A DNA stretch of 64,000 nucleotides from Thermus sp. CCB_US3_UF1 (GTDB lineage Bacteria; Deinococcota; Deinococci; Deinococcales; Thermaceae), in the NCBI RefSeq assembly GCF_000236585.1, contig NC_017278.1, positions 620,001 through 684,000 of the forward strand. The letters are read 5' to 3'. Made by a program: the position numbers and the translations under genes. Shown here piece after piece: positions 25,931 through 59,895 of the stretch (the stretch's first letter is position 1; each line of letters begins with the position of its first letter). Below the pieces are notes generated by a model that ran no database searches, was not told the origin of the DNA, and saw only the letters and a list, made by a program, of their open reading frames with translations.

Positions 25931-25958
25931 TAGACTGGAGGATATGACCGGTCAGTCA
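25931..25958 (+). promoter_or_regulatory. tmrB promoter with palindromic operator-like site
   Basis: TAGACT (25931-25936) ends 7 nt before the tmrB ATG (25944), so transcription should start at the start codon. From the second base of that codon runs TGACCGGTCAGTCA (25945-25958), containing the perfect palindrome TGACCGGTCA. The identical 14 bp recur at the MFS exporter promoter (58672-58685). A TetR-type repressor site is inferred. Confidence 0.6.
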
Positions 25959-27680
25959 CCTTCCCCCCTCCGCCGCCTCCTGCCCTACCTGGCCCCCTAC
26001 GGGTGGCGCTACGCCCTGGGGGTGGCCCTGGGCCTCCTTTCCATCCTCTTCTTCGTCCTCACCCCCTATTTCCTGCGCCTGGCGGTGGACGCCGTGGGCC
26101 ACGGGGGGCCTTATGGCCGCTACGCCCTTCTCCTCCTCCTCTCCGCGGGGGTAAGCGCCCTCCTTTCCTACTTCATGCGCCGCCTGGCGGTGGTGGCCAG
26201 CCGCCAGGTGGAGTATGACCTGAGGCGGGACCTCTTCCACCACCTCCTCCGCCTGGACCGGGGCTTTTACCACGCCACCCGGGTGGGGGACCTGATGAAC
26301 CGCCTGAATACCGACCTCTCCGCTGTCCGGGAAATGGTGGGCCCGGGGATCATGATGGGAAGCCGCCTCTCCTTCCTGGTCCTTCTGGCCTTCCTTTCCA
26401 TGTACGCGGTGGACGCCCGGCTGGCCTTCTACCTCACCCTGATCCTGCCCGCCATCGCCCTGGCCATCTTCTACCTCCTGCGGCTCATTGACCGCCGCTA
26501 CCGGGAGGCCCAGGAGGCCTTCGACGCCATCAGCACCCTGGCCCAGGAGGCCTTCAGCGGGATAAGGGTGGTCAAGGGGTACGCCCTGGAGGGGCGGATG
26601 CTCTCCCGCTTTCAGGAGCTGAACCGGGCCTACATGGCCAAGAGCCTGGCCCTGGCCAAGGTGGAGGGGCCCATGCAGGCCCTTCTGGGCTTTCTCATGG
26701 GCTTTGCCTTCCTCACCGTCCTCTGGGTTGGCGGGGGGATGGTGGTCCAGGGGGCGATGAGCGTGGGGGAGCTGGTCCAGTTCAACGCCTACCTGGCCCA
26801 GCTCACCTGGCCCATCCTGGGCCTGGGCTGGGTGATGGCCATGTACCAGCGGGGCCTCACCAGCCTCAGGCGCCTCCTGGAGCTTTTGGACCAGAAGCCC
26901 GCCATCCAGGACCAAGACCCCTTGCCCTTAAGGCCTAAGGACCTGAGCGGGGAGGTGCGCTTCCAGGGGGTGGGGCTGAGGCTTGGGGGGCGCTGGCTCC
27001 TCAAGGACATCACCCTCACCCTCCCCGAGGGCATGACCCTAGGGATCACCGGGCGCACGGGTGCGGGGAAAAGCCTTCTCGCGGCCCTTATCCCCCGCCT
27101 TCTGGACCCCACCGAGGGCACGGTCTACGTGGGGGGGTACGAGGCCCGGCGCATCCCCTTGGCCGTCCTGCGCCGGGTGGTGGGGGTGGCGCCCCAGGAG
27201 CCCTTCCTCTTTAGCGAAACCCTTTGGGCCAACATCGCCTTCGGCCTGGAAACCCCTGACCGGACGCGGGTGGAATGGGCGGCCAAGCTGGCCGGGATCC
27301 ACGAGGAGATCCTGGCCTTCCCCAAAGGGTACGAGACCGTGCTGGGGGAGCGGGGGGTAACCCTTTCGGGAGGGCAGAGGCAGCGGGTGGCCCTGGCCCG
27401 GGCCCTGGCCAAGACCCCCAGGATCCTTATCCTGGACGATGCCCTAAGCGCCGTGGACACGGAGACCGAGGCCCGGATCCTCCAGGGGCTCAAGACCGTT
27501 TTGGGCCGTCAGACCACCCTCCTCATCTCCCACCGCACCGCCACCTTGCGCCATGCTGACTGGATCATCGTCCTGGACGGGGGCAGGATCGTGGAAGAGG
27601 GCACCCATGAGAGCCTTCTGGAGGCGGGGGGGCTTTATGCGGAACTGGACCGCATCCAGCGCATGGAGGTGGAGGAATGA
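25944..27680 (+). CDS. tmrB: Heterodimeric ABC exporter subunit TmrB (degenerate site)
   Basis: Half-transporter of the TmrAB exporter, a multidrug and peptide pump that resembles the antigen transporter TAP. From ATG 25944 it has 578 residues, the T. thermophilus TmrB length. Six membrane helices (about 20-310) precede a nucleotide-binding domain with Walker A GRTGAGKS, signature LSGGQRQR, and Walker B ILILDDALSAVD, where Asp replaces the catalytic Glu. That marks the degenerate partner. A frame extension to 25896 is not supported. Stop and tmrA start overlap as ATGA. Confidence 0.92.
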   Translation: MTGQSPSPLRRLLPYLAPYGWRYALGVALGLLSILFFVLTPYFLRLAVDAVGHGGPYGRYALLLLLSAGVSALLSYFMRRLAVVASRQVEYDLRRDLFHHLLRLDRGFYHATRVGDLMNRLNTDLSAVREMVGPGIMMGSRLSFLVLLAFLSMYAVDARLAFYLTLILPAIALAIFYLLRLIDRRYREAQEAFDAISTLAQEAFSGIRVVKGYALEGRMLSRFQELNRAYMAKSLALAKVEGPMQALLGFLMGFAFLTVLWVGGGMVVQGAMSVGELVQFNAYLAQLTWPILGLGWVMAMYQRGLTSLRRLLELLDQKPAIQDQDPLPLRPKDLSGEVRFQGVGLRLGGRWLLKDITLTLPEGMTLGITGRTGAGKSLLAALIPRLLDPTEGTVYVGGYEARRIPLAVLRRVVGVAPQEPFLFSETLWANIAFGLETPDRTRVEWAAKLAGIHEEILAFPKGYETVLGERGVTLSGGQRQRVALARALAKTPRILILDDALSAVDTETEARILQGLKTVLGRQTTLLISHRTATLRHADWIIVLDGGRIVEEGTHESLLEAGGLYAELDRIQRMEVEE

Positions 27681-39168: not shown

Positions 39169-40341
39169 TTACCTGGCGCCTGGGGCCGCGAGCTCGATGG
39201 TGCGGATCAGCTTGTTGTCGGCCCAGTTGCCGCTGGCGGCCACCTGCATGACGAAGTACTTGGCCCTCTTGTTGTCGCCCTTGTCGTCAAACTCAATGGA
39301 GCCGGTGAGGCCCTCCAGCTTGACCTTGCGCACCTCCTGGGCCACCTGCTCCCGGGTGGGCTTCTTGCCGCCCGCGGCCTTGATGGCGGCCTCCAGGGCG
39401 GCCAGGATCACGTTGGCGGAGTCGTAGGCGTAGATGCCGAAGCCCTCGATCTCCTTGCCGTACTTCTGCTTGAAGCGCTGGGCCAGCTCCTTGGCCTTGG
39501 GGAAGGCGGAAACCGGGCCGGCCACCGTGGTGTAGTAGGTGCCGGCGGCGTTCTCCTTGCCCGCCAGGCGGACGAACTCGCTGGAGTCCAGGCCGTCGCC
39601 GCCCATAACCCGGGTCTTGAGGCCCCGCTCGCGCAGCTGCTTCACGAAGGGCCCGATCTGGCTGTAGATGCCGCCGAAGTAGATGAGTTCAGGGGTGGGC
39701 CGGGCGCCCCGGATCTGGTTGATGATGGGCACGAAGTTGGCCGTCTCCTCGGTGCCCACGAAGGCCACGGCCTTGCCCCCCAGGGCCTCGAGGCGCTTTC
39801 TAAACTCCTCGGCCAGGCCCTGACCGTAGGCGGTCTTGTCGTGGATGACGAAGACGTTCTTCACCTTCAGGTTGTTGAAGGCGTACTCCGCCCCCACGGG
39901 GCCCTGGACGTCATCCCGCCCGCAGATGCGGTTCACGTTGGGCAGGCGGCGGTCGGTGACCCGGGGGTTGGTGTTGGCCGGGGAGACCATGACGAGCCCC
40001 ACCCGGGCGTAGACCTCGCTGGAGGGGATGGCCACGCCGGAGTTCAGGTGGCCCACCACCCCCAGGATGTCGGGGTCGTTGATGATGCGGTTGGCGTTGG
40101 CCACGCCCACGTCGGGGTTGGCCTGGTCATCGTAGGGCACCAGGACCAGGTCAAAGCCCAGCTGGCGGAACTTGGCCTTGGCCTCCTCCACCGCCAGCTC
40201 CGCCCCCAGCTTGATCTGCTCCCCCAAGGCGGCCTGGGGGCCGGAAAGGGGGGACTGGGTGGCGATCTTGATCACGTTGGCCTGGCCCAGGGCCATGCCC
40301 AGGGCGGCTACACCTGCTACCAGAAGCCCGATTTTCCTCAT
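39169..40341 (-). CDS. livJ: Branched-chain amino acid receptor (LivJ/LivK type)
   Basis: Extracellular amino-acid receptor of the Liv importer. From ATG 40341 (GAGGAGG at 5 nt) the protein has 390 residues: signal peptide (MRKIGLLVAGVAALGMALGQ), then the Leu/Ile/Val-binding fold with IATQSPLSGPQAALGEQIKLG (split at about 25-45), GVVGHLNSGVAIPSSEVY and VMVSPANTNP. A frame extension to 40380 is not supported. Possible ligands beyond branched-chain amino acids cannot be excluded. Confidence 0.93.
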   Translation of the reverse strand: MRKIGLLVAGVAALGMALGQANVIKIATQSPLSGPQAALGEQIKLGAELAVEEAKAKFRQLGFDLVLVPYDDQANPDVGVANANRIINDPDILGVVGHLNSGVAIPSSEVYARVGLVMVSPANTNPRVTDRRLPNVNRICGRDDVQGPVGAEYAFNNLKVKNVFVIHDKTAYGQGLAEEFRKRLEALGGKAVAFVGTEETANFVPIINQIRGARPTPELIYFGGIYSQIGPFVKQLRERGLKTRVMGGDGLDSSEFVRLAGKENAAGTYYTTVAGPVSAFPKAKELAQRFKQKYGKEIEGFGIYAYDSANVILAALEAAIKAAGGKKPTREQVAQEVRKVKLEGLTGSIEFDDKGDNKRAKYFVMQVAASGNWADNKLIRTIELAAPGAR

Positions 40342-40378
40342 AGGCACCTCCTCAGGCACGCGTTCGCGTTGCGGCCCC

Positions 40379-40409
40379 ATTCTACGGGGGGGGTACCGGG
40401 CCTTGTCAA
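40379..40409 (-). promoter_or_regulatory. liv operon promoter
   Basis: TTGACA (40404-40409) and TAGAAT (40379-40384) with a 19-bp spacer that is C-rich on the minus strand. It would give a leader of about 30 nt carrying GAGGAGG. Confidence 0.6.
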
Positions 40410-40433: not shown

Positions 40434-40470
40434 TGACCCATGGGTCAGCCCCCCTCCCCCAAGGAGGGAG
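40434..40470 (-). terminator. Region ending glnA: palindrome and GC hairpin
   Basis: Past the glnA stop the minus strand holds a CCCTCC/GGAGGG-type hairpin (about 40447-40470) and then the perfect 16-bp palindrome CTGACCCATGGGTCAG (40434-40449). Either may stop the glnA transcript before the liv promoter; no T run is seen. Confidence 0.4.
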
Positions 40471-57531: not shown

Positions 57532-58635
57532 CTACCCCACCCCCGTAGGTCTGTCAAGGCCGAGAAGCCGCACCTGGAAGGCCCTGAGGAGGTCGGTCTT
57601 GCTGAGGATCCCCACCAGCCGCCCCCCCTTTAGCACCAGGCCCCGGGCGTAGCCCCGCTCGGCCATGCGCTCCAGGGCGCTTAGGGCCTCGTCCTCCGGG
57701 GAGAGGATGAGGGGCACCTGCAGGTAGCGGGCCACGGGGGCTTGGAGGTCGGCCCCCTCCAGCCCCTCCAGCCCCACCACCCCCAGCACCTGGCCCCCCT
57801 CCACCACGGGGAAGCCCGATACCCGGTAGGCCAGGGCCAGGGACAGGGCTTCGGCCACGGGGAGGTGGGGGGGGATGGCGATGGGGTCTTGGGTCATGAG
57901 GTCCCGCACCTTTAGCCCCTCCAGGGCCTGGGCCAGGAGGGTGGCCTCGGCCTCGGCCCTCGAGGCCATGTAGACAAAGAAGGCCACCAGGATCAGGAAG
58001 GGGTTCAGGACCAGAAGCCCCAAAAGCCCCAGGGCCACCGCCACCCCCTGGCTCAGGGCCACCGCCTGCCGGGTGGCCCGGAGGTAGGGCCTGCGCAGGG
58101 CCAGGAGGGCCCGGTACACCCGGCCCCCGTCCAAGGGCAGGGCGGGGAGGAGGTTGAAAAGCCCCAGCATCAGGTTGACCCAGGCCAGGTAGTGGCTCAA
58201 AAACCCCCAGGCCCCCCCCTCCCCCCAGACCAGGCGGAAGAGGAGGGCCAGGGCGAAGCTCACCCCCGGGCCCGCCAGGGCGATCTTGAGCTCCTTTGGG
58301 GGTTCCCGGGGGATGCGCTCCATCTGGGCCACCCCGCCCAGGAGCCACAAGGTGATGCGGCGGGTGGCCACGCCCAGGCTCCGGGCGGCCAGGGCGTGGC
58401 CCAGCTCGTGGAGGAGGACGGAAAGGAATAGGCCCAAGGCGGCCAAAAGCCCGAGGAGGAAGGGCCAGGGGCCCTGGAGGAGGCTGGGGTCAGTTCCAAG
58501 GCCAAAAAGCTGCAGGTAAAGGGGCAGGTTGCTCCCGATGAGGAAGGCCCATAGGGGCAGGACCACCAGGAAGGAGAGGTCCAGGTAGATGGGGATGCCC
58601 AGGACGGGGAAGAGGAGAAGGCCGCGCTGGAGCAT
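57532..58635 (-). CDS. Site-2 protease family protein with CBS pair
   Basis: Intramembrane zinc protease (M50B). From ATG 58635 it has 367 residues: about six helices with HELGH (about 76-80) and LLPALPLDGGR (about 164-174), which supply the zinc ligands, then two CBS modules (about 235-355) that usually bind adenine nucleotides. Substrate unknown. TATACT ends 5 nt before the ATG. A longer frame to 59016 is antisense to the MFS gene and spurious. Confidence 0.91.
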   Translation of the reverse strand: MLQRGLLLFPVLGIPIYLDLSFLVVLPLWAFLIGSNLPLYLQLFGLGTDPSLLQGPWPFLLGLLAALGLFLSVLLHELGHALAARSLGVATRRITLWLLGGVAQMERIPREPPKELKIALAGPGVSFALALLFRLVWGEGGAWGFLSHYLAWVNLMLGLFNLLPALPLDGGRVYRALLALRRPYLRATRQAVALSQGVAVALGLLGLLVLNPFLILVAFFVYMASRAEAEATLLAQALEGLKVRDLMTQDPIAIPPHLPVAEALSLALAYRVSGFPVVEGGQVLGVVGLEGLEGADLQAPVARYLQVPLILSPEDEALSALERMAERGYARGLVLKGGRLVGILSKTDLLRAFQVRLLGLDRPTGVG

Positions 58636-58671
58636 GCCCCAGTATACCCCCCGGGGAGGAGGGATTGATAA

Positions 58672-58695
58672 TGACCGGTCAGTCAGTCGTAGGAT
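58672..58695 (+). promoter_or_regulatory. MFS exporter promoter with operator-like site
   Basis: TAGGAT (58690-58695) ends 6 nt before the GTG start. Immediately upstream, in the -35/spacer region, is TGACCGGTCAGTCA (58672-58685), identical over 14 bp to the site at tmrB and followed by one more GTC repeat. Its position suits a repressor. Confidence 0.6.
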
Positions 58696-58701
58696 AGGGA
58701 G

Positions 58702-59895
58702 GTGCTGGCCCTGGCCCTCCTCAAGGATCCCCTCTACCGCCCCTACTGGCTGGCCCTCTTCACCTCCCAGATGGGCACCTGGATGCAGTCCGCCGCCCAG
58801 GGGTGGCTGGTCCTCCTCCTCACGGGGAGCGCCGAGCGGTTGGGGCTGGTGGTGGCCCTGCAGTTCCTGCCCTCCCTGCTCTTCTCCCTGCCCGCCGGGG
58901 TCCTGGCCGACCGCTACCCCAAGCGCAACCTCCTCCTCTTGACCCAGGGGGGGATGATGCTCCTGGCCCTCCTCATGGGCCTCCTTATCCTCACGGGCTG
59001 GGTGCGCTACGGCCACGTCCTCCTCTTCGCCTTCCTCTACGGGGCCCTGAACGCCATGGACCTGCCCGTGCGCCAGAGCTTCACCGTGGAGCTGGCGGGG
59101 CGGGAGCGCTACCCCGGGGCCATCGCCCTCAACTCCTTCGGCTTCAACACCAGCCGCCTCCTGGGCCCGGCCCTATCCGGCTTTCTCATCGCCCTTTTTG
59201 GGGTAGGGGTGGCCTATCTGGCCAACGCCCTTTCCTTCCTCCCCCTGCTCCTGGTCCTCCGCCGCGTCCCCCCAGGGCCTCGAGGGGAAGGGGATGGCCG
59301 CTGGTGGCGGGAGGCCCAGGAGGGGGTGCGCTTCGTCCTGGAACACCCCCTGGTGCGGCGGGTGGTGGGGCTGGTCCTTTTCGCCAGCCTTCTCGGCATG
59401 AACTTCCAGACCCTGGTCCCCGCCTACGCCCGGCTGGTCCTGGGGCTTTCCGCCACCGGGTACGGTTTCCTGGTCTCCTCCGTGGGCCTGGGCGCCCTGG
59501 GGGCGGCCCTGGTCATGGCCTTCACCGGGCGGCCCAAGCCCGTGCGGCTCCTTCTGGGGGTGTTTCTCCTGGCCTTGGCCCACCTGGGCCTCTTCCTGCC
59601 CAAGCCCGCCCTGGCTCCCCTCTTCCTCGCCCTGGGGGGGTTTGGCATGATCTCCGTCCTCATCAACGCCAACACCCTGGTGCAGCTCTCCGTGCCCGAC
59701 CGGCTACGGGGCCGGGTCATGGCCGTCTACAGCCTGGTCATGCTGGGCACGGGGCCCCTGGGGGCCTACCTCACCGGCCTTCTCTTTGAGGCCCTAGGGG
59801 GGCGGTGGGCGGCCCTGGCCCTGGGGGGGGTGGTCCTCCTGGTGGGGCTTTACCAGCTCCGCCCCTGGCCTAAGGGTCCCAGTCCGCCGGCCTAG
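58702..59895 (+). CDS. MFS exporter (EntS/MefA-like)
   Basis: Proton-driven drug or siderophore exporter of the DUF894/EntS branch. 397 residues, twelve helices; motifs [19 protein letters not shown] near the start, [15 protein letters not shown] (motif A, about 71-85), [19 protein letters not shown] (about 135-153) and the second A-like motif [15 protein letters not shown] (about 331-345). Substrate unknown. The GTG start is set by the TAGGAT box. Its 3' end overlaps wecB by 26 nt. Confidence 0.9.

Follow-up and report, generated by a model that had tools for sequence, protein, structure and literature searches.

The 64,000-nt stretch of Thermus sp. CCB_US3_UF1 analysed here (the window; 68% GC, from the 2.26-Mb genome denoted G000 in the coordinates below) carries the 14-mer TGACCGGTCAGTCA twice, once at the start of the ABC exporter gene tmrB and once at the promoter of an MFS exporter gene. 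TmrAB is used to model the structure of the human TAP peptide transporter and has mostly been studied as a purified ABC exporter, and our literature search found no paper joining it with SbtR or PfmR, the two regulators considered below.

Two copies of a 14-mer at exporter promoters

The features at the two loci, together with a third site in the window, are as follows.

57532..58635, minus strand: divergent M50 metalloprotease gene with CBS domains; a homologue is present at 25/27 MFS loci
58641..58646, minus strand: -10 box TATACT of the M50 gene, with the ATG 5 nt downstream
58665..58670, plus strand: TTGATA, a weak and tentative -35-like element with a 19 bp spacer, inconstant among genomes
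58672..58685, plus strand: candidate operator TGACCGGTCAGTCA between the MFS exporter gene and the divergent M50 protease gene
58690..58695, plus strand: -10 box TAGGAT of the MFS gene, with the GTG 6 nt downstream in leaderless geometry
58702..59895, plus strand: MFS exporter, Pfam MFS_3, 397 amino acids; orthologue in 27/27 Thermus genomes
25931..25936, plus strand: -10 box TAGACT of tmrB, 7 nt to the ATG
25944..27680, plus strand: tmrB orthologue, best PDB match 6raf_B over its full length
25945..25958, plus strand: second copy of the candidate operator, corresponding to +2 to +15 of tmrB and overlapping its start codon
27677..29482, plus strand: tmrA orthologue with a 4-nt overlap with tmrB, named by its position beside tmrB and its ABC exporter domains
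40434..40447, plus strand: third, variant site TGACCCATGGGTCA, ahead of the gene for an amino-acid binding protein (39169-40380, minus strand)

Chain B of 6raf, whose PDB title reads multidrug resistance ABC transporter, is presumably TmrB of T. thermophilus. An earlier interpretation of this DNA from its letters only (the sequence-only reading) had placed the 14-mer 4 bp upstream of the TAGGAT box of the MFS gene and 32.7 kb from the copy at tmrB, and had found no TetR gene in the window. All of this is borne out: positions 58686-58689 separate site and box, the two copies are spaced by 32,727 bp, and the five TetR_N genes of the genome all lie elsewhere. The identity of the two copies extends to 15 bp, ATGACCGGTCAGTCA, consisting of the 14-mer and the preceding A. 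The start codons of tmrB and of the MFS and M50 genes are all found 5-7 nt past a -10-like box, a leaderless geometry at these predicted promoters, and both sites overlap or abut the predicted core promoter. Leaderless starts beside a -10 box are reported to be common in Deinococcus-Thermus (PMC12340547).

That a 14-bp identity would be unlikely by chance in 64 kb, as the sequence-only reading had argued, does not hold, as the window contains 950 distinct repeated 14-mers (1089 pairs), compared to a mean of about 215 in 12 first-order Markov sequences. The case for the site thus rests on genome comparison. Within the whole genome, exact copies of TGACCGGTCAGTCA are limited to these two. Across 27 Thermus genomes, TGACCGGTCRGTCA occurs 34 times in 21/27 genomes, with a single occurrence of the reversed-pattern control, and comparison with orthologue positions places each of the 34 in one of two locations, the start of tmrB or the promoter of the MFS gene. 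A chance repeat within GC-rich coding sequence would fit the abundance of repeated 14-mers, but is at odds with conservation at fixed positions over 27 genomes; on this ground we reject it as extremely improbable, even though the earlier probability argument failed.

Conservation of the dyad across Thermus

Orthologues of all four proteins, TmrB, the MFS exporter, SbtR and PfmR, occur in 27/27 Thermus genomes. The pattern TGACC-N4-RGTCA is present at +2 of tmrB in all 27 genomes, and the strict dyad TGACY-N4-RGTCA precedes the MFS gene in 25 of them. Some of these genomes are closely related, leaving 25 (tmrB) and 26 (MFS) distinct 100-nt rows out of 27. On the distinct rows, the eight outer half-site bases are conserved to 100% at tmrB and 99% at the MFS gene, compared to 85% and 90% for the six inner bases, while flank conservation amounts to 61-64% at tmrB and, at the MFS gene, to 52% upstream and 82% downstream of the site. 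The neighbouring -10 boxes are likewise retained, as TA(G/A/C)ACT 6-7 nt upstream of the tmrB ATG in 27/27 genomes and as TA(G/A)(G/C)(A/C)T, separated by 6 nt from the GTG of the MFS gene, in 26/26 tabulated rows, G001 standing outside that table.

In tmrB, the site reaches from codon 1 to codon 5. Codon 5 is TCA in 27/27 genomes, whereas TCA accounts for only 2/644 of the other Ser codons of the same genes, which demonstrates that selection acts on the DNA itself at the tmrB start. The encoded residues meanwhile vary at codons 3-4, giving MTGQS, MTGRS, MTGWS, MTERS, MTSWS, MTDRS and MTGGS, and half-sites that are held while the protein varies are what an operator predicts. The inverted repeat could instead act at the RNA level by forming a small hairpin around the start codon, as the near-palindromic site lies at the 5' end of a predicted leaderless mRNA. 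The predicted fold is weak, however (-2.4 kcal/mol, z +0.42), and the MFS copy is located upstream of its -10 box, hence outside the MFS mRNA. This very improbable explanation was set aside on account of the weak fold. The two exporters very probably have a genuine, conserved operator in common, read by a TetR-family protein whose gene lies outside the window.

Three tmrB homologues from Meiothermus/Thermaceae (L173, L174 and L175) feature AACTGACC(G/A)GTCAGTT-like palindromes near their start, at approximately 980-1015 of these loci. Their half-site spacing differs from that in Thermus; they are recorded as a lead only and no support is drawn from them.

SbtR and PfmR as candidate regulators

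An SbtR orthologue (TTHA0167 type) is encoded at G000:C2:1984725-1985261, outside the window. Its best match, near-identical through the helix-turn-helix, is 3VUQ, which we take to be SbtR. The regulator is widespread, being found in 47/50 genomes of the family. Its published consensus is TGACYRNNYRGTCA (PMC4948773), and this dyad is found without mismatch in the present genome at the two exporter sites only. In strain HB8, the genomic sequence that fits SbtR best is the same 14-mer, located between TTHA1315 and TTHA1316, followed by a match at +2 of TTHA1342 that is marked as promoterless (PMC4948773), and SbtR binds the TTHA1315/16 14-mer with a dissociation constant (KD) of 1.2 nM in biolayer interferometry (PMC7022988). 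TTHA1342 appears to be tmrB, as its printed first 16 nt are the same as in the tmrB orthologue of G017, which in turn agrees with 6raf_B in its first 12 residues, and as the MFS site is about equally far away (29.7 vs 29.4 kb).

We therefore favour, at a probability of roughly two in three, the 14-mer as the operator of the TetR-family repressor SbtR, whose release on ligand binding would switch on both exporters together with its regulon. The SbtR dimer would read the outer half-sites TGACY and RGTCA. On the MFS side, the site fills the spacer just 5' of the -10 box and borders on the -35 region of the M50 gene, which runs the other way, so that a bound dimer should obstruct RNA polymerase at either gene. 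For tmrAB, the transcript is probably leaderless, with the site covering +2 to +15; there, at the start codon, a bound repressor would prevent initiation or promoter escape. We infer that SbtR occupies the tmrB site and represses in vivo at a leaderless start, and that a ligand would turn on both exporters and the other regulon members by driving its release. Repression at the transcription start by TetR-family proteins of the QacR type, a comparison made in PMC7022988, resembles the arrangement at tmrB, where an operator downstream of the -10 box likely imposes a block after polymerase binding. Unlike the QacR type, the tmrB operator shares bases with the start codon of a probably leaderless mRNA and belongs to the coding sequence.

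The intergenic MFS/M50 site is identical to that between TTHA1315 and TTHA1316 of the HB8 SbtR regulon, which uses the same 14-bp operator (PMC4948773, PMC7022988). The operator at the MFS promoter is hence already known, whereas the one at tmrAB is newly argued here. The idea of the sequence-only reading that one regulator serves both pumps is upheld insofar as a conserved operator is common to both, but the regulator had already been published as SbtR and PfmR binds as well.

Several observations weigh against control by SbtR. The TTHA1342 site was left aside as non-promoter or non-intergenic in both PMC4948773 and PMC7022988, and our literature search, in which only two papers named TTHA1342, found no binding or expression measurement for the tmrB site. 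A search of the sbtR upstream regions in 27 genomes (about 150 nt for L104) gave no TGACY-N4-RGTCA, so the autoregulated TetR gene carrying the site, expected by the sequence-only reading, is absent. The MFS site departs from the strict dyad by one base in two genomes, beginning with CGAC in G014 and ending with GTCG in G001, the latter site being read by hand after the script had missed it. The tmrB operators outside Thermus look different. The MFS and M50 genes TTHA1315/1316 were unchanged in the published single-deletion arrays (PMC7022988), so that the co-regulation of the pumps in vivo, as proposed by the sequence-only reading, stays a prediction. Finally, PfmR binds the TTHA1315/16 site in vitro with a KD of 7.4 nM (PMC7022988).

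The unchanged MFS and M50 expression would also fit two sites that bind repressor in vitro with little present regulatory role, their conservation coming from something else at the promoter. We consider this quite improbable, because the half-sites are almost completely conserved at two unrelated promoters, including an avoided Ser codon in 27/27 genomes, and because the same dyad recurs at other promoters. Although the papers on the HB8 regulon set TTHA1342 aside, the conservation over 27 genomes argues for a function of the site. Discarding sites within annotated genes can lose real operators in bacteria rich in leaderless genes.

PfmR (TTHB023) is the other candidate. Its 16-mer consensus CTGACCGATCGGTCAG overlaps the SbtR motif in the same frame, its two best genomic matches in HB8 are the same two sites (PMC7022988), and its orthologue in all 27 Thermus genomes as well as the affinity for the MFS site given above would fit a role as main regulator of both sites, alone or with SbtR, in which case both proteins would have to leave before the pumps are made. 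The authors of PMC7022988 proposed a shared control by SbtR and PfmR, which is possible, arguing that dual control would explain the silent single deletions. PfmR binding becomes about 100-fold worse after inner-base point changes (PMC7022988); SbtR binding is not weakened by a change at position 6 (PMC4948773, PMC7022988). The inner G6 and C9 of the 14-mer are both kept in 26/27 MFS sites and in 21/27 tmrB sites. The critical C9 is lost from the other six tmrB sites, one of which has lost G6 too, while the SbtR half-sites stay intact throughout, which favours SbtR as the conserved partner. The inner G and C are furthermore missing from many of the wider conserved sites, the MFS gene was unchanged in the PfmR deletion and the confirmed in vivo targets of PfmR are fatty-acid/phenylacetate-type genes (PMC7022988). 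We thus regard PfmR as an unlikely main regulator of the two sites.

The PfmR orthologue carries TTACCGACCGGTCGGTGA just upstream of its own start (L013, about 1456-1473; G000:C2:107196-107213), which fits the published autoregulation. A FadR orthologue (PDB 3ang) is present in the genome as well, and the TetR genes at L014 and L016 were not tied to the motif studied here. The fifth TetR gene features a GTAAGTatgCACTTAC-like palindrome across its own probable start codon (L014, about 1462-1477; G000:C2 near 21934).

Other promoters carrying the dyad

Summed over the 27 genomes, TGACY-N4-RGTCA occurs 298 times compared to 21 times for the reversed pattern, with 11 occurrences in the window's genome. 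Flanking genes of these wider sites were compared between the window's genome and G001-G006, the labels YgfZ, PntA, GlnA and HolA being given by eye. Conserved sites precede the genes of an M3 peptidase/4HBT thioesterase, a TldD peptidase, an MFS transporter of the TTHA1822 type, an aldo/keto reductase and an EamA transporter in 7/7 genomes each, and the amino-acid binding-protein gene next to the site at 40434-40447 in 5/7 genomes. From the 75 sites counted in G001-G006, six tmrB, five MFS and nine rRNA-type sites, the last labelled after Table 3 of PMC4948773, were subtracted, leaving 55 for comparison. Thirty-four of these lie at six promoters common with the window's genome and 21 elsewhere; some of the 21 unmapped sites look coding, and four precede a HAD-hydrolase gene, a designation based on a Pfam run for one of them. 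The two-pump regulon of the sequence-only reading was accordingly drawn too small, as the dyad is conserved at seven promoters at least and the window itself holds a third, variant site.

Sites like those of TTHA0027, TTHA1330 and TTHA1821/1822 in the HB8 SbtR regulon (PMC4948773, PMC7022988) recur in the present genome. The M3 peptidase, TldD peptidase and EamA promoters may be additions to that regulon, as judged against part of the HB8 locus tags. One known repressor most likely controls TmrAB, the second exporter and several peptidase genes jointly. With M50, M3 and TldD as peptidase families and TmrAB, two MFS proteins and EamA as transporters, the regulon seems to follow a theme of peptide handling and export. 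We tentatively suggest, as a possible extension, that TmrAB is part of a peptide-handling regulon under SbtR, alongside the M50, M3 and TldD peptidases and several exporters, that its operator occupies the first codons of a leaderless gene with bases common to repressor and start codon, and that its natural substrates might be peptides or drugs that are also SbtR ligands. By pointing to a likely TmrAB repressor and its partner genes, the conserved operator offers a route to the inducing ligand and the physiological role of this exporter.

The gene next to the site TGACCCATGGGTCA encodes a branched-chain-type binding protein, and the published SbtR match TTHA1330 looks equivalent. The HAD-hydrolase sites were found in four of the six other genomes, near 700-760 of L284, L303, L310 and L312. 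A one-sided variant, ATGACCGGTCAGTAT, is located where an S9 peptidase gene of the TTHA1605 type may start (L011, about 1499-1514; G000:C2:558626).
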